From: Tanticharoenia sakaeratensis NBRC 103193
GTDB taxonomy: Bacteria > Pseudomonadota > Alphaproteobacteria > Acetobacterales > Acetobacteraceae
Direction: 5' to 3'
DNA length: 64,000 nucleotides
Assembly: GCF_000963885.1 (NCBI RefSeq)
Contig: NZ_BALE01000012.1
Coordinates: 62,001 to 126,000 of the forward strand
The first letter of the stretch is position 1. The number at the start of each line of letters is the position of its first letter. The notes beneath the pieces are model-generated. The model did no database searches, had not been told where the DNA came from, and saw only the letters and a program-made list of their open reading frames with translations. Of this stretch, positions 11,214-62,586 are shown in pieces. Position numbers and translations under genes: made by a program.

Positions 11214-11969
11214 TCACCGGCTGGCTGAAGCCGTGGGAGCAGGCGCGAGATCGAGCCGGATGTCCCGGGCGAGATCCAGAACGAAGCCGTGCAGACCGGA
11301 GAAGAGGATCTGAATGCCGATGCACAGCAGGATCAGGGCAGCAAGGCGACTGACGATCCGCGTGCCGGTCGAGCCCAGCATGGCCACGACGCGATCGGCA
11401 TAGGCATAGACCCCTGCCACGACGAACGCGATGGCCGTCGAGGCCAGCGTCAGGCCGATGTAGTAGCTCGGCATCGGATCTGATGCCGGCCGCTCCGAAC
11501 TAAGCGCAATCGCAACCGAGATACTGCCCGGTCCCACCGTGAACGGCATGGCGAGCGGAAAAAAAGCCGTCTGACGCAGATCTGCGGTAGCCGTCGTTCG
11601 ACCCTCCTGCAGCGCCTGGCGTTCCTTGCGGGCCTCGATCTCCTCCGGTTCCTGCAACAGCGCCCAGGCACGGACAGCCACGACCAGGCCACCCGTCACA
11701 CGCAAGGCATCGATCGTGATCCCGAAGAAGCCGAGGATCCATTCGCCGAACCAGATCGAAACGATCAGGATGATGAACGAGTTCAGCGCCACGAGCCGGG
11801 CCAGCGTCACGCATTCCCTGCGCGACCGGCCTAGCGTCGCCTGCGCGAAAATCAGTGCGGCCCCGAGCGGATTGACGATCGAGAACAGGGCCGGAAACGC
11901 CAGCAGGAACGCCGCAAGCACGTTGCGCGCACCAATCTGCTGCGTCAGCCCATGCGGTGAAATGATCAT
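11214..11969 (-). CDS. MarC family integral membrane protein
   Basis: A 251-residue protein with six hydrophobic segments. The MarC hallmarks are FPALFSIVNPLGAALIF near the N-terminus and FPLAMPFTVGPGSIS in the middle, the two internally related NP(L)G/PxxxGPG motifs. It is longer than usual MarC proteins (about 200-220) because of a charged linker rich in glutamate and arginine near residues 105-135. The family's transport substrate is unknown; the old link to multiple antibiotic resistance was not upheld. It follows the MprF-like gene by 27 bases and is probably the last gene of the lysK operon. Confidence 0.88.
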   Translation of the reverse strand: MIISPHGLTQQIGARNVLAAFLLAFPALFSIVNPLGAALIFAQATLGRSRRECVTLARLVALNSFIILIVSIWFGEWILGFFGITIDALRVTGGLVVAVRAWALLQEPEEIEARKERQALQEGRTTATADLRQTAFFPLAMPFTVGPGSISVAIALSSERPASDPMPSYYIGLTLASTAIAFVVAGVYAYADRVVAMLGSTGTRIVSRLAALILLCIGIQILFSGLHGFVLDLARDIRLDLAPAPTASASR

Positions 11970-11996
11970 GCCGTCACGCCCGCCGTCCCAGCGACG

Positions 11997-14120
11997 TCAC
12001 GGCGCGGATGCGCCCTGCCGACGGACAATCGCCGCCGTATTACGGGCGCGACGCGCGAAGCGGCGCTGGTCTCCGATCAAGACGGCACGAACGGCCGGCT
12101 CATCCTGGGGCAGGCAGCATAACGTTCCAGCGCCGGCCGGTGCGTTCTGGCACACGCTCAGACCGAGATCGCAATAGACGCCCTGCAGAGCCTGGCCGAT
12201 ACGGATGAAGACAAGATGGCGTCCTTCATGCAGCGCGAGGTCGCGCAGGCGCCAGATCGCCGCTGTACAAAATCGCGCCTGCCCTGCCGGATCGCCCAGC
12301 CCGATGATGAAGCGCTCGGTGCGGAGGAACGGGATTGCCGCACGCCCGGCATCGCCAAACAGTACGCCGTTCGGCCGCCGCGGGCCGAGTTCGGCGAGCG
12401 CGTGATCCAGCTCACGATACCGCTCCTCGGAACTCCGGTCCCAGGGCAGGACGGGTATGCGGCCGACACGCATCATCTGTCCGATGGCGATCAGCCCCAG
12501 AAGAACCGAAAGCCCCAAGACCCAACGCACATCGGCTTCACGGGCGCCATGCAGCAGTTCGCGCCACCACGACACCCCCAGGTGACGTTCGGAGGCGAAG
12601 ATCGCGATGCTCACCAGGCTCGCGATCCAGAGCATGACCGGCGTCATCAGCGTCGGCGACCACGGCTCGGACATGAGTCGAGCCGGACGGTAATAGCAGG
12701 AACTGAAGGGCGCGATCAGCACGATGACCAGCGCAAGCGAGCCGGGAACCCCAATCGGCGCATGCCGAAGCAGGACAAGTGCGATCGCCCACAGCAGACA
12801 TCCGATCGTCGCCTTCCAGGCCAGCAGCACGCGCTGGGACAAGCCGATGGCAAGCCCCACCAGCGTGACGCCGGTGACCGAAAGCAGGCAATCGGTCACC
12901 TCGTGCAGCCACCAGCCGCCAAATCCCGTCGGGGCATAAGCCGAGGGCAACATAGCGTAAACTACAAGCAGGATGCCTGACGCGGCCACGACACCGGTTG
13001 CGACCGCCACCGAGAAATCGGCCTCGCTCTCCCGGATCACGTGGCTGGGTCGCGGCGCCAATACCGGCGCGGGCTCGCCACGGCGGCGCGCCGCCTGCGC
13101 GCGCTTGCGCCCAAGGGCCGCGTCTCCGCGCAGGAACATCTCGTGCCCTGCGAACATGAGGCCCGCGAGGACGAGCGGCACGATGTAGTAGAGCACGCGG
13201 AACACGAGGATCGTGCTCAGAATGGCCGATGCGCTCATGTAATGGCCGAGAGCCAGCATCATCGCGCCATCGAAGACGCCCAGGCCCCCCGGCACGCTCG
13301 CCAGCAGACCTGCCGTGTAGGACATCATGTAGATCGCGAGGAACGCGCCGAAGCTGATCGGAACGCCGTGCGGCAGCAGGACGTAGGCGATCAGAGCCGT
13401 TGCCGCCATGTCCGCGCTGGACACCGCGACCTGGGCCAGCGCCGTGCCGATACCCGGAAGATCGATCTCATGATGCCGGATACGAAGCACACGCGGGCGC
13501 AGGGACATGACGACATATGCCGCGATCACGGCCCACATGCCGATGCCGATCACGATCGGCACGATCTCCGGCACATGGGTCGAGATCAGCGGCAGATGCC
13601 CCGGCTCGGCCAGCAGGACGCCCCCGATCAGTGCGAGCGTACCCAGCAGATAGGTGGTCGAGCAGAACGCGATGATCTGGGCGATCGCGGCACTGCCGAC
13701 GCCCCAGTTCCGATAAAGCCTGAAGCGGACGGCAGCGCCTGAAATCGCCGAGCAGCCGAGATTATGGGACAGTACATAGGAGCAGAACGCCGCAAACGCG
13801 GCCCTGCGATACGAGACATCCGCGCCGACCTGCCGACACGCGAGCCAGTCATAGAAGCTCAGGATCGTGTACGACAGGACCGTGCACGCGATGCCGACAT
13901 TGACCGCGCGGCCTGGCATTGCATGCAGCGCTGCACGGATATCGTGAAAAGACAGCGTATGGAGTTCGCGGACGATGACGACGATCGCTGCGATCATCAG
14001 CACCAGACCCAGCGCCGCCGGGAGGCGGTGCAGGAGACGGCGCCAACGATGCGGCGCACCGGCGCTCCCGGCGCACGGCACGATCGGATCGTCTGCTTGC
14101 GGCTCCGGTGCGACGCTCAC
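11997..14120 (-). CDS. MprF-like membrane protein with incomplete synthase domain
   Basis: A 707-residue protein. Residues 1-340 match the flippase part of MprF/LpiA (UPF0104-type) with about eight helices and the marker LASVPGGLGVFDG; a second helix bundle follows (about 375-560). The last 140 residues correspond to the first of the two GNAT-like halves of the aminoacyl-phosphatidylglycerol synthase domain (IIGLGDPAGQARF, LVFIRIGQALQGVY), but the second half, which completes the active site in full-length enzymes of about 840-880 residues, is missing. No remnant lies downstream; marC starts 27 bases after the stop. Start is GTG at 14120 behind GAGGGA. It directly follows lysK (21 bases), whose product makes the lysyl-tRNA that full MprF enzymes use. 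Lipid flipping or a regulatory role is more likely than synthesis. Confidence 0.8.
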   Translation of the reverse strand: MSVAPEPQADDPIVPCAGSAGAPHRWRRLLHRLPAALGLVLMIAAIVVIVRELHTLSFHDIRAALHAMPGRAVNVGIACTVLSYTILSFYDWLACRQVGADVSYRRAAFAAFCSYVLSHNLGCSAISGAAVRFRLYRNWGVGSAAIAQIIAFCSTTYLLGTLALIGGVLLAEPGHLPLISTHVPEIVPIVIGIGMWAVIAAYVVMSLRPRVLRIRHHEIDLPGIGTALAQVAVSSADMAATALIAYVLLPHGVPISFGAFLAIYMMSYTAGLLASVPGGLGVFDGAMMLALGHYMSASAILSTILVFRVLYYIVPLVLAGLMFAGHEMFLRGDAALGRKRAQAARRRGEPAPVLAPRPSHVIRESEADFSVAVATGVVAASGILLVVYAMLPSAYAPTGFGGWWLHEVTDCLLSVTGVTLVGLAIGLSQRVLLAWKATIGCLLWAIALVLLRHAPIGVPGSLALVIVLIAPFSSCYYRPARLMSEPWSPTLMTPVMLWIASLVSIAIFASERHLGVSWWRELLHGAREADVRWVLGLSVLLGLIAIGQMMRVGRIPVLPWDRSSEERYRELDHALAELGPRRPNGVLFGDAGRAAIPFLRTERFIIGLGDPAGQARFCTAAIWRLRDLALHEGRHLVFIRIGQALQGVYCDLGLSVCQNAPAGAGTLCCLPQDEPAVRAVLIGDQRRFARRARNTAAIVRRQGASAP

Positions 14121-14141
14121 GATCCCTCGCGCACGCTTCGC

Positions 14142-15791
14142 TCAGGCCGTGACGGATTCGACGGCATGTTCATTGCCATCTGCAGACCGGGCCAGCGCTC
14201 CATCGATCAGCCCGACGGTCTCGGGAAGACCATACAGGGACGCAAAGATACCGAAGCGCGGTCCTTCCGTCTGGCCCAGCAGGACCTCGTACAGGCAGCC
14301 GAACCATGAACGGAGCTGGGGCTTTGCGAAATATCGCTTGCCGACCTCGAACACGATGTCCTGCACCGCATCGGGCGTCGCATCCGCGGGCGTGGTGCGC
14401 AACGCGTTGGCGAGATCCTGCAGGCCCTTGCGCTCCGTCTCGTTCGGCGCGCGATAGACTTTCGCCGGGCGCACGAAATCCCGGAAATACGCCAGCGCAC
14501 GACCAACGAGCTGGTCGACATAGGGATGCGTCTGCGGCGAGAGCTCCGGATCGTAGCGCTGCAGGAACTTCCAGAGCGTCGCCGTATCATCGGCGTTCGC
14601 AACACTCGCGAGATTCATCAGCGCCGTGAACGACACCGGGCTCGAATCCTGCGGGCGGATCGTGCCGCCCTGGATGAACCAGGCCGGATTGGCCTGGAGC
14701 ACGGCCGGATCGTCGGTCTGGGCCGCCTTGTCGACATTGGCGAGGTATTCGTCCGTCGCGCGCGGAATAACGTCAAAAAACAGCCGCTTTGCGCGTGTCG
14801 GCTGATGGAACATGTATTGGCCGAGGCTTTCCGGTGGCGCATAACGCAGCCACTCGTCGATCGAAAGCCCGTTCCCCTTGGACTTGGAAATCTTCTGGCC
14901 GTTCTGGTCGAGAAAGAGCTCGTAGGTCAGCCCCGCCGGCGGTTCCTTGCCCAGCACGCGGCAGATCTGGCTCGACAGACGGACGCTGTCGATCAGGTCC
15001 TTGCCCGACATCTCGTAATCGACGCCGAGAGCGAACCAGCGCATGGCCCAGTCGGCTTTCCACTGCATCTTGGCCTTGCCGCCGAAGACGGAGGTCTCGA
15101 ACGCCTCGCCGTCCTCGTCCCGCCACTGAACGGTTCCGGCTTCGGGATCGACCCCCAGCACCGGCACCTGCATCACCCGACCGGTGCGCGGATGGATCGG
15201 CAATACCGGGGAATAGGTCGCACGCCGCGCCTCGCCGAGTGTCGGCGCAATCAACGCCACTATTTCGTCATGCACTTCAAGCATACGGCGGAGAGCCGCA
15301 TCGAATACGCCGCGCGTATAATAGTCCGTGGCGGACGCGAACTCGTACTGGAAGCCGAAATTGTCGAGAAATTCCCGCAACATGGCATTGTTGTGGTGCG
15401 CGAAGCTCTCGAACTTGCCGAAAGGATCCGGAATCCGAGTCAGCGGCAGGCCGAGATGCTCGGCCAGCATGGCCTGATTCGGCACATTGGTCGGCACCTT
15501 TCGCAGCGCGTCCATGTCGTCCGAGAACGCGAGCAGGCGCGTCGGCCGACCGGTCAGCGCCTCGTAGGCCTGCCGTACCCAGGTCGTGCGGGCAACTTCG
15601 CCGAACGTGCCGATATGCGGCAGGCCGGACGGCCCGTATCCCGTTTCGAGCAGCGCAGGACGTGCTTCGGCGCCCGCGCCGCCGGCGGCGACGTGGTTCG
15701 AGATCTTGCGGGCTTCCTCGAACGGCCAGGCCTTCGGGAGTTCATGACTTTCGGCGCGCGGCGCGGCGTGGTGAGCACTATCGGATACCAT
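14142..15791 (-). CDS. lysK: Lysine--tRNA ligase, class I
   Basis: A 549-residue class I lysyl-tRNA synthetase, the archaeal-type enzyme found in some alphaproteobacteria instead of class II LysS. HIGH appears as HIGT (residues 59-62, in YGPSGLPHIGT) and KMSKS as KISKS (300-304). ATG 15791 starts MVSDSAHH; the frame is open 23 codons further but without conservation. The C-terminal helical anticodon-binding part is complete. It heads a run with the MprF-like gene and marC, and is divergent from the DinG-type helicase with 159 bases between the starts. Confidence 0.95.
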   Translation of the reverse strand: MVSDSAHHAAPRAESHELPKAWPFEEARKISNHVAAGGAGAEARPALLETGYGPSGLPHIGTFGEVARTTWVRQAYEALTGRPTRLLAFSDDMDALRKVPTNVPNQAMLAEHLGLPLTRIPDPFGKFESFAHHNNAMLREFLDNFGFQYEFASATDYYTRGVFDAALRRMLEVHDEIVALIAPTLGEARRATYSPVLPIHPRTGRVMQVPVLGVDPEAGTVQWRDEDGEAFETSVFGGKAKMQWKADWAMRWFALGVDYEMSGKDLIDSVRLSSQICRVLGKEPPAGLTYELFLDQNGQKISKSKGNGLSIDEWLRYAPPESLGQYMFHQPTRAKRLFFDVIPRATDEYLANVDKAAQTDDPAVLQANPAWFIQGGTIRPQDSSPVSFTALMNLASVANADDTATLWKFLQRYDPELSPQTHPYVDQLVGRALAYFRDFVRPAKVYRAPNETERKGLQDLANALRTTPADATPDAVQDIVFEVGKRYFAKPQLRSWFGCLYEVLLGQTEGPRFGIFASLYGLPETVGLIDGALARSADGNEHAVESVTA

Positions 15792-15950
15792 GATGCGCGA
15801 GAAGCTAGGAACTGCGCGGGGCCCGGTCAAGCGATCGCGCATAATCCATTGATTTGACACAGTATATCAGGACCGATTTTGCCGTTTTGTTCTTGTTCGG
15901 GAAGAACGCGGCGACAAGTGCCGCGACGCGCCCTATGCTCCACCGGGCCA

Positions 15951-18900
15951 ATGCCTGACATGCCCGCCCTACCGTCATCGCCGTTTCCCGATCTCGCAAC
16001 GGCACCCGCGTTGATCGCAGGGCACGGCGCGTGCTCGCTGCTGACGCCCGATGGCGAGCTGCTGGTCCCCGACCGGGCCGATCTGCCCGCGCTGTTGCGC
16101 ACGCTGCCGCCGCCGCTGCTGGTCCACGCGCCCGCGACATTGCGCGGTATCGGCCTGACGCCGCCGGCGCCCCCCGGTCCGTGGCTCGATCTGCTGGAAC
16201 TGTTCCTGTTCTGCCATCCCGGCCGCAGCGCCGCTCCCACGCCACGCGGGCTTGCGATCGCGCTGCAGGTTCCAGTCCCGGCCCGGCTGGAGGCTGACCT
16301 GCTGCCTGCCCTCGCCGATACCATGCTGGAAACATTGCGGGCACGCAGCGGCACGGCAGACGGCAAGCCCTTGCGCGAAATGCTGTCGGTGCTGCGCGCC
16401 GGTCGATGGCCCTGGGCCGGGATCGTCGCCGACGCCCTGGATGCGCCGGATCAGCCGCAACCGACATTCGATGCGCTCCGCGTCTGGCGCCGCCTGCCCA
16501 AATGGGAGGAAACCGCCCCGAGGCCCGCGCCGGGCAACCATCCTGTCGCCCCGGGCGATGCGCGGACGCGCCTGCGCCAGATCCTCGGACCCGATGCCGA
16601 GACCCGGCCGGGCCAGGCCGATTTCGCGTCCGTTGCCGCCGGCGCGTTCGATCCGAGGGAAGACGCGCTGGCGCCCAATATCGTTCTGGCTGAAGCAGGC
16701 ACCGGGACCGGCAAGACACTCGGCTATGTGGCACCAGCCAGCCTCTGGGCGGAAATGAACGGCGGCGCGGTCTGGATCAGCACCTACACGCGCCACCTGC
16801 AGCGGCAGATCGATCAGGAACTGCGCAGACTCTATCCGGATCCTGCGATCCGGCGTCATGCGGTCGTGGTGCGCAAGGGCCGCGAAAACTATCTGTGTCT
16901 CCTGAACATGGAGGACAGCATCAACACGGTCCTGTCGCGCGGCGCTGCGGCCGGTGCCGCGCTCATCCCGCTGGCTCTGCTGTCGCTCTGGGCAGAGGTC
17001 ACCAACGACGGCGACCTCTCCGGTGGCGACCTGCCGGGCTGGTTCGGCGAACTGTTCGGACGCGGCACACTGACCGCCATGGCGGACCGGCGCGGCGAAT
17101 GCATTCATGGTGCCTGCCCGCATTACCAGACATGCTTCGTGGAGCACACGATCCGCCGGGCCCGTGAGGCGGACCTCGTGATTGCAAACCACGCGCTCGT
17201 CATGTCGCAGGCGGCCTGGAGCGCGGCCTCCGGCTCGGCGCCGCTGGCCGAGGACGCGGTGCCGACGCGTTACGTGTTCGACGAGGGACATCACGTCCCG
17301 GATGCCGCCGACAGTGCATTTGCAACGACCCTGTCCGGTCTCGAGGCCGCAGAACTGCGCCGCTGGCTGCTCGGCGCCGAGGGCAGCCGGTCCCGCGCAC
17401 GCGGCCTGCGCCGCCGACTCGAGGATCTGGTCGCGACCGAGGCGAGCCTCGAAGCGCCGATGGATGCGGTGCTGCTTGCCGCCCGCGCGCTGCCTGCCCC
17501 GGGCTGGGCTACCCGGCTGGCGGATCGCGCGGTAGCCCATGCGCCACCGCCCGAACCGATCGAGGACGCGGAGACCGATGTGCCGCCGTCCACGCCTTCC
17601 AACCCGTTCACGGCTCTTCTGGCAGCCCCCCTGCCCGCACGCGGACTCGCGCCGGAACCGGCACCCAACAACCCGACGGAGGAGTTTCTCGCGGCCATCG
17701 ATCGCGAGCTCGCCGCGCGCCTTGCCGGCAAGGACGGGCGCGCACGCCGAATGCTCGGCGGCGAGTGTGATCTTCACCCTGTGCCGGATGACGTGCTCGA
17801 GGCCGCGGCCGCCCTCTCCCGCGCGCTTGGGCGCCTGAGCACCCCGTTGCACACGCTCATACAGCGCCTTCAGGCCAAGCTCGAGGAGGACGCGGACGCC
17901 CTCGAGAGCAGTGAACGCGCCCGGATCGAGGCGCTGGTCCGAACCATCACGCGCCGCGCGATCGCGCCCGTCGACGCGTGGACCGCGATGCTGGATCAGG
18001 TCCCGGCCGAACGCGCGGCCGGCACCACACCGACCTATGTCGATTTCATCCGCGCCGATCCGCTGCCGGCCGTTCGTGGAGCGAGCCCGGCAGAGCGCGG
18101 CCACGACATCGGGCTGCACCGGCACTGGCTCGATCCAATGGCACCGTTCGCCGCCACGATGCAGGGCCCGGCGCATGGCATGCTCATCACATCGGCAACC
18201 CTGCGTGACCAGCCCGATACGGCGGGAAGCGACTGGGAACAGCCGGCATGGCGTGCGGCCGAGATGCGGCTCGGCATGCCCCATTTCGCGCACAAGCCGA
18301 CGCGCGCAGCCCTGATGAGCCCGTTCGACTACGCGAAGCAGACGCGGGCGTTCGTCGTGACCGACGTGGCGCGCGACGATCCCGATTCGCTGGCTGCGGC
18401 CTATCGCGAGCTCTTCCTGGCCGCGGGTGGCGGCGCGCTCGGCCTTTTCACGGCCATTTCCCGTCTGCACGCGGTGCAGGAGCGAATCCGCCCTGCCCTG
18501 GAGGCGGCCCGTCTGCCGCTCTATGCGCAGCACGTCGATGCGATGGACAATGCAACACTCGTCGACGTCTTCCGCACGGAGCCGGACAGCTGTCTACTCG
18601 GCACGGACGCGATGCGCGACGGGGTGGACGTTCCGGGGCGCTCCCTGCGGCTCGTCGTGTTCGAACGGCTGCCCTGGCCCCGGCCCGACATCCTTCATCG
18701 CGAGCGTCGCCTGCATCTGTCGCGCCCGGCCGAAGACGGCCCGTCGGATGCTCTCTCGAAAGTCGAGGCCCAGCGCCTGTACGACGATCGCATCGCGCGG
18801 ATGCGTCTGAGGCAGGCGTTCGGACGTCTGGTGCGCAGGGCGGACGATCGGGGCGCATTCGTCCTGCTGGACCGGCGCGCGCCCAGCCGGCTGTTCTCGG

Positions 18901-18992
18901 CCTTTCCGCAGGGCGTGTCGGTGCAGCGGCTCGGACTTGCCGATACGATCAGGGCAGTTGCAGAGTTCCTTGCCGCTTCCCCGTCGCACTGA
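15951..18992 (+). CDS. DinG/XPD-type ATP-dependent DNA helicase
   Basis: A 1013-residue superfamily 2 helicase. Walker A is EAGTGTGKT (near residue 250), the DEAH box is DEGHH (near 444), and motif VI is RQAFGRLVRR close to the C-terminus. Between Walker A and the DEAH box lies a cysteine cluster (CIHGACPHYQTC plus an earlier cysteine), consistent with the iron-sulfur domain of XPD/DinG helicases. The first 230 residues are a proline- and alanine-rich region not shared with E. coli DinG and there is a long insertion after the DEAH box. Likely unwinds DNA at R-loops or damage; inferred. ATG 15951 chosen as first conserved-looking start; ATG 15960 is in frame. Confidence 0.88.
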   Translation: MPDMPALPSSPFPDLATAPALIAGHGACSLLTPDGELLVPDRADLPALLRTLPPPLLVHAPATLRGIGLTPPAPPGPWLDLLELFLFCHPGRSAAPTPRGLAIALQVPVPARLEADLLPALADTMLETLRARSGTADGKPLREMLSVLRAGRWPWAGIVADALDAPDQPQPTFDALRVWRRLPKWEETAPRPAPGNHPVAPGDARTRLRQILGPDAETRPGQADFASVAAGAFDPREDALAPNIVLAEAGTGTGKTLGYVAPASLWAEMNGGAVWISTYTRHLQRQIDQELRRLYPDPAIRRHAVVVRKGRENYLCLLNMEDSINTVLSRGAAAGAALIPLALLSLWAEVTNDGDLSGGDLPGWFGELFGRGTLTAMADRRGECIHGACPHYQTCFVEHTIRRAREADLVIANHALVMSQAAWSAASGSAPLAEDAVPTRYVFDEGHHVPDAADSAFATTLSGLEAAELRRWLLGAEGSRSRARGLRRRLEDLVATEASLEAPMDAVLLAARALPAPGWATRLADRAVAHAPPPEPIEDAETDVPPSTPSNPFTALLAAPLPARGLAPEPAPNNPTEEFLAAIDRELAARLAGKDGRARRMLGGECDLHPVPDDVLEAAAALSRALGRLSTPLHTLIQRLQAKLEEDADALESSERARIEALVRTITRRAIAPVDAWTAMLDQVPAERAAGTTPTYVDFIRADPLPAVRGASPAERGHDIGLHRHWLDPMAPFAATMQGPAHGMLITSATLRDQPDTAGSDWEQPAWRAAEMRLGMPHFAHKPTRAALMSPFDYAKQTRAFVVTDVARDDPDSLAAAYRELFLAAGGGALGLFTAISRLHAVQERIRPALEAARLPLYAQHVDAMDNATLVDVFRTEPDSCLLGTDAMRDGVDVPGRSLRLVVFERLPWPRPDILHRERRLHLSRPAEDGPSDALSKVEAQRLYDDRIARMRLRQAFGRLVRRADDRGAFVLLDRRAPSRLFSAFPQGVSVQRLGLADTIRAVAEFLAASPSH

Positions 18993-60838: not shown

Positions 60839-62586
60839 AGGCCGAATCGCGCACGCAACGCCCGGCCGACATGCAGGATGACATCCTCCCAACAGCCCGG
60901 CGGTGGCGACGGCTGCTCGGGCTGAAACTGCACGAGATCCCGATACCAGCCGCCTGGGGCCAAGCCATCTGAATGGGGCGCATCGTACCAGCGCCAGTCA
61001 CCCCCGAACCGATTGAGCAGCCAGACAGGCCGGCCGAGCGCGCCAGCGAGGTGCGCGACCGCCGTATCGACGGCGATCACAAGATCGCACGCCATGATGG
61101 CATCCGCCGTTGCCTTCAACGTCGTCAGATCAACCGACCGCAGGCCCGGCACGTCGACGTCGCGCTGCAGGTTCCACCAGGTTACACCCCGGGTAGCCAG
61201 CAGAGGCGCAAGTTGCGCCAGTTGCAGCGACCGTCGCCGATCAAAGCGATACCGCGGACTGCCGCGCCAGACGATACCAACGACCGGTTCCGTTCCCGGC
61301 GACCGCGTGCCCACCGGACCGGTGGCCAGATAGGGCGCATTCGATGGCGCGCCGGCTTCAAGAATTGCAGGCAGGCTGAGCAACGAGCAACGGGCAACGC
61401 ATTCCGCATCCGCAGTTCGAATGTGCCCCGGCGGAAAGGCCCGGAGCGCCGGTATCATGTCGAGCAGACCCGCAGCCGTCTCCGGCAGACGGACGACAAC
61501 AGGCACGCGGGCTGCCGCCGCCGACAGAAAGCGTGCGAACTGGATCACGTCGCCAAGTCCCTGCTCCGCCTCGATCAGGACACAGCCTGTGCCGCTGTCA
61601 CCGCGCCAGTCGGGCAGCCCGGACCCGGCGGGTATGGCGAGCGCCAGACGTTGCTCGAAGAAACGCCAACCTTCGGACCATCGTCCGCTGCCCAGCATCA
61701 GCGTGCCGAGGTTGAACCCGGCACGGGACGCCTCGAGACCATCCTTGGTCCCGGCAATGCCGCGATACAGCCGTTCGGCTTCCGCATGTGAGCCCAGCTC
61801 CTGCAGCACGGTTGCGTAATTGTTGGCGATTCGCGGATCGGCGGGCGTGGCCTGGTGCGCGTCATGCAAGGCGTGGCCCGCCCGTCCGAGGTCGCCGCGC
61901 GCCATGGCGACCAGACCGATATTGTTGAGCGTTTCCGGTGTCGCGGATCCGATCCGGACTGCCTGATCAAGCGCCTCGGCCGCTGCATCAAGATCGCCCG
62001 ACACAAACAATCCGGCCCCGAGATTGGCGGCGGCCGCAGGATCGTCCGGCCGCAGATCCGCAATGACCCGGAACTCTCGGGCGGCCTCGTCATGTCGTCC
62101 CATAAAACCGAGGATCTGCGCCCGCTTCAGCCGCAGCCCCACATCGGTTTGTGCCAGGACGACTATGGCATCGACCAGGTTCAGCGCTTCATCGAGACGG
62201 CCTAGCGCAATCAATGCATCGGCGAGATCCGCATTGGCCTGGATGTGAAGCGGATCGTGCAGAAGCGCGACATGTAATGCGGCACGCGCGGCTTCGGAAT
62301 GCCCCAGTCGAAGCAGGGCGCGGCCAAGTGCGGCATGCGATCCGGCGTGCTGGGACTCGGAACGCGATGCGCGTGCCGCCATTCCGGCAAGGCCTGCCGC
62401 GCGAGCCCAGTCCCCGCGTGCCAGAGAAATCTGCGCCAGCCCGGTCAAGGCATCCGGGCGGCCGGCTGATGTCGCATCCACCAGGCGGAACGCCGATTCC
62501 GCGCCTTGCAGATCGCCCCGGGCAAGTCGTGCCCATCCAATGCTGACCTGATCAGTGTCGTCCCCGTTAACGAAGTCTTCAGACAT
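60835..62586 (-). CDS. TPR protein fused to a glycosyltransferase-9-like domain
   Basis: A 583-residue protein. Residues 15 to about 300 hold eight or so TPR-like repeats (for example ALNNIGLVAMARGDLGRAGHA-type units rich in A-L-G). From about 320 on there is a domain seen in heptosyltransferase-like proteins: SGRWSEGWRFFEQR, EAEQGLGDVIQFARFL, GIVWRGSPRYRFDRRRSL and AVDTAVAHLAGALGRPVWLL. Such fusions occur in proteobacteria near flagellar or polysaccharide genes. No acceptor is known. Its 3' end overlaps glnD by four bases. ATG 62586 used. Confidence 0.82.
   Translation of the reverse strand: MSEDFVNGDDTDQVSIGWARLARGDLQGAESAFRLVDATSAGRPDALTGLAQISLARGDWARAAGLAGMAARASRSESQHAGSHAALGRALLRLGHSEAARAALHVALLHDPLHIQANADLADALIALGRLDEALNLVDAIVVLAQTDVGLRLKRAQILGFMGRHDEAAREFRVIADLRPDDPAAAANLGAGLFVSGDLDAAAEALDQAVRIGSATPETLNNIGLVAMARGDLGRAGHALHDAHQATPADPRIANNYATVLQELGSHAEAERLYRGIAGTKDGLEASRAGFNLGTLMLGSGRWSEGWRFFEQRLALAIPAGSGLPDWRGDSGTGCVLIEAEQGLGDVIQFARFLSAAAARVPVVVRLPETAAGLLDMIPALRAFPPGHIRTADAECVARCSLLSLPAILEAGAPSNAPYLATGPVGTRSPGTEPVVGIVWRGSPRYRFDRRRSLQLAQLAPLLATRGVTWWNLQRDVDVPGLRSVDLTTLKATADAIMACDLVIAVDTAVAHLAGALGRPVWLLNRFGGDWRWYDAPHSDGLAPGGWYRDLVQFQPEQPSPPPGCWEDVILHVGRALRARFGL

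Follow-up and report, generated by a model that had tools for sequence, protein, structure and literature searches.

A C-terminally short MprF-like gene without the essential synthase residues lies behind lysK across the Acetobacteraceae

Introduction

The closest described relatives of the protein reported here are the bifunctional MprF/LpiA proteins, represented by structures from Rhizobium tropici (6lvf, 7duw) and Pseudomonas aeruginosa (9goe) and by the NCBIfam model NF033480, which combine a lipid flippase with a synthase of lysyl-phosphatidylglycerol (Lys-PG). Here we analyse a shorter MprF-like gene of Tanticharoenia sakaeratensis NBRC 103193 (Acetobacteraceae), located between lysK, which encodes a class I lysyl-tRNA synthetase (LysRS), and marC, in a stretch of 64,000 nucleotides (positions 62,001 to 126,000 of contig NZ_BALE01000012.1, assembly GCF_000963885.1), hereafter called the window. 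The short form shares with the bifunctional proteins both membrane bundles, the gate pair, part of the lipid head-group site, GNAT fold 1 and the docking arginine, but it has no GNAT fold 2, keeps at most one of the essential synthase letters and is tied to lysK. It also differs in reading FRxxY instead of YRxxY, and in having a histidine in the place of Asn117 in 81 of 83 copies.

Mycobacterial LysX is a class II LysRS fused to an active Lys-PG synthase. LysX thus combines LysRS and MprF functions, whereas at the Tanticharoenia locus the LysRS is of class I and encoded by a separate gene, and the synthase residues are lost, so that the arrangement is not LysX-like. LysX2 (Rv1619), described as having a 343-residue synthase-like domain and four predicted transmembrane segments (PMC8974105), is likewise an odd relative of MprF, from which the short form differs by the loss of the synthase. 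Clostridium perfringens MprF1, which is reported to have no flippase domain while retaining the synthase (PMC11980842), is also a natural half-MprF, but there the opposite half was lost. Finally, flippase-only LPG_synthase_TM proteins of about 320-360 residues, of which we found many matches class-wide, share the first membrane bundle and resemble the reduced lysK-linked copies described below, whereas the common lysK-linked form retains the second bundle and GNAT fold 1 as well.

According to PMC2774229, changing any of K547, K621, E624, D731, R734 and K806 in Staphylococcus aureus MprF abolishes Lys-PG synthesis, and the flippase and synthase halves function in trans. The P. aeruginosa protein was described in 2025 as the first dedicated bacterial lipid scramblase to be characterised (PMC11980842). 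Within the family studied here, transposon insertion in Acetobacter fabarum mprF, labelled as phosphatidylglycerol lysyltransferase, lowered persistence in flies, significantly so for one of two insertions, and the authors invoked Lys-PG translocation to explain the effect (PMC10269862). In the literature on MprF in acetic acid bacteria, on class I LysRS and on truncated or flippase-only forms, searched mainly within open-access sources, we found no description of the short form.

Results

The 707-residue protein matches Pfam LPG_synthase_TM over residues 37-318 (55.8 bits against a cut-off of 33.4), indicating that the flippase bundle is present. The NCBIfam model of bifunctional MprF (NF033480) is matched at positions 4-622 of 841 only (309.8 bits, below its cut-off of 600), and LPG_synthase_C over profile positions 10-97 of 298 only (23.6 bits, below its cut-off of 27.5). 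Alignments with the solved MprFs of P. aeruginosa and Rhizobium end at residue 656-657. The original prediction, made from the letters of the window, that both membrane bundles are present with only GNAT fold 1 is borne out by these profile matches and by the alignment ending at residue 657, and a complete LPG_synthase_C domain with two GNAT folds is missing from the protein. No second LPG_synthase_C match was found elsewhere in the same genome, which is 99.9% complete.

To place the six essential S. aureus residues, we used L113, a full-length alphaproteobacterial MprF, on which they were located by the motifs GDK, KLGE, DLMR and FKSKF and their spacing, without an alignment of the S. aureus protein. 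Residues were then counted in 83 short proteins and in 18 full-length controls; a nineteenth control, L123, was excluded because its synthase also looks dead. K547 was present in none of the 83 short proteins versus all 18 controls, and K806 in none versus 17. K621 and E624 were each found in 17 of the controls, and in one and five short proteins, respectively. For D731 the same letter occurred in 2/83 versus 15/18, and for R734 in 11/83 versus 18/18, with 67 of the 83 gapped at these two places, and the few matching letters most likely reflect chance alignment of the tail. At most one of the six residues remains in any short protein, and none in 64 of the 83, the window's protein among them, whereas all six are present in 14 of the 18 controls. 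Judged from these comparisons, the synthase site is lost, which goes beyond the incomplete active site that had been predicted. Since two defining features of a bifunctional MprF, the complete synthase domain and its essential residues, were both sought in vain, the short form cannot be classed as a bifunctional MprF; judged by sequence features, it resembles the flippase half.

The excluded control L123 comes from another alphaproteobacterial family (genome G183) and is a near full-length MprF in a frame of 859 residues, in which all six essential residues are missing at the aligned places; it is therefore probably a second or an intermediate dead synthase. In this genome L123 and lysK lie on different contigs.

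A synthase encoded elsewhere in the genome was considered and rejected. Only 9 of 150 family genomes contain a complete LPG_synthase_C domain, always outside the lysK-linked gene, and all nine also carry the lysK-linked gene; the search yielded no complete synthase in the other 131 of the 140 carriers, some of these assemblies being incomplete. The nine genomes are G006, G011, G016, G078, G092, G097, G125, G130 and G166. Six of these full MprFs were placed on a tree, where they fell among other alphaproteobacterial full MprFs.

The short gene is present in 140 of the 150 family genomes and in 96 of 102 sampled genera. From these 140, we compared 82 copies chosen for usable contigs, mostly one per genus (two from Asaia); copies that were split, frameshifted or reduced to the first bundle stand outside the 82, and the residue counts use the 83 short proteins. 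One copy, L003, begins after an apparent assembly frameshift and lacks the first 62 residues. In 81 of the 82 copies the reading frame ends 0-87 residues past the match to the window's protein; in the remaining one, L093, the match stops in the first bundle, yet the frame is 668 residues long. In the full-length controls, 196-237 residues follow the same point in 14 of 19, the other five having matched the membrane part only, and full-length relatives extend about 225 residues beyond GNAT fold 1. Median lengths were 684 residues for the 82 short copies versus 865 for the 19 controls.

In a tree of the shared columns of 41 short proteins and 19 controls, made with a quick method, a single branch separated all short proteins from the controls, with a length of 0.78 and a support of 100 in the Shimodaira-Hasegawa-like approximate likelihood ratio test (SH-aLRT), which is consistent with the loss having happened once, ahead of the family's radiation. 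The original prediction had named plain decay, with full-length relatives and a recent stop here, as the outcome that would undo it; the 82 relatives fetched are all C-terminally short, the short proteins on the tree lie together beyond this one branch, and recent decay is rejected. In a sample of 378 genomes across the phylum, the gene was present in all six that belong to the family, and in other families every frame that reached GNAT fold 1, among the matches listed, was at least 852 residues long. Frames of 651-714 residues in G057, G534, G689, G709 and G733 are matched by the window's protein in the first bundle only, and in G057 a frame of equal length is also matched by positions 567-840 of the MprF profile; judged from these matches, the five are probably MprFs without the second bundle.

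Some copies have been reduced further. The gene behind lysK ends just past the first bundle in five genomes from three genera (loci L129 to L132 and L134), namely G112 and G173 of one genus, G091 and G163 of another, and G126, whose genus mate G004 retains a frame of 684 residues. Searching downstream of the reduced copies by tblastn with eleven short proteins did not recover the remainder, save for one match in L132 that extends beyond the stop as far as the beginning of the second bundle. Thus, as far as the sequences tell, the portion that stays with lysK is the flippase bundle. The copy in G116 is frameshifted and that in G158 is split by an insert. In the latter locus (L133, at about 5.1-7.5 kb) the short mprF is interrupted by two frames. 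These resemble an IS21-type transposase pair, which we take to be a natural disruption. Five loci with lysK (L124-L128, each from a different genome) contain no trace of an mprF-like gene.

Residue roles for the membrane part were taken from the R. tropici protein (RtMprF), as given in PMC8131360, and mapped by alignment. The RtMprF barrier pair R304-E280 corresponds to R308, found in 83/83 short proteins, and D284, with 80 Asp and 3 Glu. Y307 corresponds to Y311 (83/83) and D234 to D237 (75 Asp and 8 Glu), so that these gate and head-group positions are retained among the short proteins. RtMprF R456, which makes the inter-domain contact, is R478 in all 83, and its partners E611 and D635 are represented by D627 (82/83) and D651 (71/83). 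Mean pairwise identity among the 83 was highest in the first bundle (0.546), followed by GNAT fold 1 (0.485, versus 0.509 in full MprFs) and the second bundle (0.374, the lowest), a pattern of conservation that fits a translocase with a docked cap. A regular expression for a basic helix after GNAT fold 1 was found in 9/83 short proteins and 5/19 controls, the pattern being too loose.

Linkage to lysK was scored with one mprF match per genome (140) and one lysK match per genome where listed. In 133 of the 140 genomes the gene and a class I lysK match are on the same contig, and in 132 of these 133 it lies directly behind lysK on the same strand; the exception is G103, where it is 2.2 kb away. 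The other seven genomes could not be assessed because 113 to about 520 bases of sequence lie between the start of the match and the contig end where lysK would be expected; in two of them, G014 and G167, the lysK domain was matched on another contig, up to 339 and 177 bases, respectively, short of that contig's end. Measured from the lysK stop to the nearest ATG or GTG, the gap is between -50 and +50 bases in 79 of 93 loci, with overlaps of 1 or 4 bases in 17; another five loci lacked a start codon of this kind in frame. Among 289 genomes sampled class-wide, 19 had a full-length MprF above the cut-off, and lysK was among the listed matches for 14 of them; comparison by eye found the full-length MprF beside lysK in 0/14, with several of these on different contigs.

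A divergent helicase gene is also common next to lysK. In 102 loci, 20 of them picked later and five of these for lacking mprF, the helicase adjoined lysK in 67 of 93 judgeable cases and mprF adjoined lysK in 96 of 101, the misses being L047 and L124-L127, four of which had been chosen for lacking the gene. Where the helicase was not adjacent (26 loci), mprF was still behind lysK in 25, and the exception was one of those chosen as lacking mprF; the lysK-mprF pair is therefore kept better than the surrounding region.

Of the predicted order lysK-mprF-marC, the first part held across the family (132 of the 133 assessable genomes), and the last did not: marC lies within 300 bases of mprF in 17 of 140 genomes and at 3.4 kb in one more, based on 21 marC matches picked by eye because they share a contig with mprF. 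It adjoins mprF only in the part of the family that contains the window's genome and looks like a clade-specific neighbour, and a conserved lysK-mprF-marC unit is rejected. Likewise, for the proposed flippase-only MprF wired to lysK with MarC, the tie to lysK and the loss of the synthase stand family-wide, while MarC appears to be clade-specific.

Discussion

Taken together, the sequence comparisons lead us to favour, with moderate confidence, the view that the short form is a stand-alone inner-membrane lipid flippase or scramblase; it would derive from a bifunctional MprF, be co-expressed with lysK and have ceased to make Lys-PG. According to this model, the synthase residues and GNAT fold 2 would have been lost in an ancestor, before the family radiated. 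The conservation pattern and the RtMprF structure suggest that GNAT fold 1 probably remains docked, via R478 together with D627 and D651, on the cytoplasmic face, where it may serve as a structural or gating cap. The probable cargo would be one or more existing membrane lipids and not self-made Lys-PG. Co-transcription with lysK is very likely, given the shared strand and gaps that are mostly below 50 bases or overlaps. The link most likely began while lysyl-tRNA was still used, and may now mainly provide steady co-expression with an essential gene, MarC presumably being a later neighbour in one clade.

Several observations weigh against this interpretation. The gene was not matched in 10 of the 150 family genomes, and six of the 102 sampled genera are without a match. 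The head-group pocket is altered, with N117 of RtMprF replaced by H119 in 81/83 and Y303 by F307 in 83/83 (S238 is T241 in 80/83); these residues differ from those of most MprFs, and the substrate may therefore differ. Among the residues that take part in docking in RtMprF, D604, R136 and R639 are not retained, and a pure flippase might do without GNAT fold 1, which three genera have lost. AlphaFold models had a low predicted local distance difference test score (pLDDT 45.7 for the whole protein with three sequences, and 51.0 for the C-terminal piece). A Foldseek search with the low-confidence C-terminal model ranked MprF synthase domains first, and this gives weak support only, because no match reached an E value of 0.001. 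Since the helicase neighbour is conserved, part of the linkage to lysK is general synteny. Moreover, S. aureus MprF without its C-terminal domain is reported to give no peptide resistance by itself (PMC2774229), and a flippase half therefore need not give a phenotype of the known type.

It is unlikely, in our estimate, that the protein is primarily a sensor or regulator, in which GNAT fold 1 binds lipid, LysRS or tRNA and reports lysine charging or the lipid state more than it moves lipids. The strong conservation of a non-catalytic GNAT fold 1, the stable link to lysK and the altered head-group pocket would all suit such a role, but the three genera that dropped GNAT fold 1 retained the lysK-linked first bundle.

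A continued part in aminoacyl-lipid formation, by an unrecognised synthase acting in trans or by a new use of GNAT fold 1, seems rather improbable. It would agree with the linkage to lysK and with the working of the S. aureus halves in trans (PMC2774229), but the essential residues are gone, and the search that detected a complete LPG_synthase_C in nine genomes found none in 131 of the 140 carriers, some of them incomplete assemblies. Equally doubtful is an extension of the flippase model in which a synthase-free scramblase is hard-wired to the lysK operon throughout the family, with its retained pseudo-GNAT cap linking the charging of lysine, or LysRS, with how lipids are distributed across the inner membrane.

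We give little credence to an ordinary inherited lysK-mprF operon, in which a minor MprF variant would move lipids redundantly and have no particular connection to lysine: the conserved helicase beyond lysK and the six sampled genera without a match speak for it, but mprF stays behind lysK in all but one of the loci that lack the adjacent helicase, while marC and other neighbours vary. Finally, a decaying relic that stands by chance behind an essential gene is very improbable, since the broken copies in G158 and G116 and the ten genomes without a match are outweighed by matches in 96 of 102 genera, and by invariant gate residues and high first-bundle identity in the fetched copies.

If the short form is a stand-alone flippase, then nearly a hundred sampled genera keep the flipping part of MprF without the making part, which would offer a natural route to the function of a flippase alone. 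If the mprF of A. fabarum is the short form, the Lys-PG explanation given in PMC10269862 cannot stand as written.

Other features of the locus

As predicted, coordinates and profiles agree that lysK, the MprF-like gene and marC lie together on the minus strand, with intergenic gaps of 21 and 27 bases (Table 1). The lysK product matches the NCBIfam lysine--tRNA ligase model NF001968 with 796 bits, and no class II LysRS above the model cut-off was found in the same genome (best match 167 versus 427.6 bits), so lysK looks like the sole lysyl-tRNA synthetase gene. A simple consensus scan across the three genes found no promoter-like and no terminator-like sites, where shuffled sequences lead one to expect 0.7 and 2.9, respectively, which is weak evidence.

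Table 1. Positions in the window of the lysK-mprF-marC genes and of the parts of the short MprF
Feature	Positions	Strand	Details
lysK, class I lysyl-tRNA synthetase	14142..15791	-	549 aa counted from ATG; profile match
lysK-mprF gap	14121..14141	-	21 bases; some relatives overlap by 1 or 4 bases instead
Short MprF, predicted synthase-dead	11997..14120	-	GTG start, 707 aa; profiles, alignments, residue counts
First membrane bundle (flippase)	13131..14018	-	About residues 35-330; Pfam LPG_synthase_TM 37-318
FRxxY motif (most MprFs have YRxxY), lipid head-group site and gate	13188..13202	-	Residues 307-311; mapped to RtMprF Y303/R304/Y307
Second membrane bundle	12465..13016	-	About residues 369-552; alignment with full-length MprF
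R478, equivalent of RtMprF R456, inter-domain contact to GNAT fold 1	12687..12689	-	83/83; PMC8131360
GNAT fold 1 core, without the essential lysines; docking residues D627 and D651 kept	12147..12407	-	Residues 572-658
Tail, then protein end; a full MprF would continue into GNAT fold 2	12000..12146	-	Sequence comparison
marC	11214..11969	-	251 aa; Pfam MarC 127 bits

A search of the same genome for VirJ, of a Lys-PG hydrolase family, gave no match, the control likewise matching nowhere. On contig C93 (L144:1114-2040, minus strand) there is a match to an OlsB-like ornithine N-acyltransferase (278 bits, below the model cut-off of 350), which may be a possible source of aminolipid and says nothing direct about the substrate of the short MprF. 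Divergent from lysK, at positions 15879-18992 of the plus strand, lies a long frame that was labelled helicase-like by eye from its sequence.
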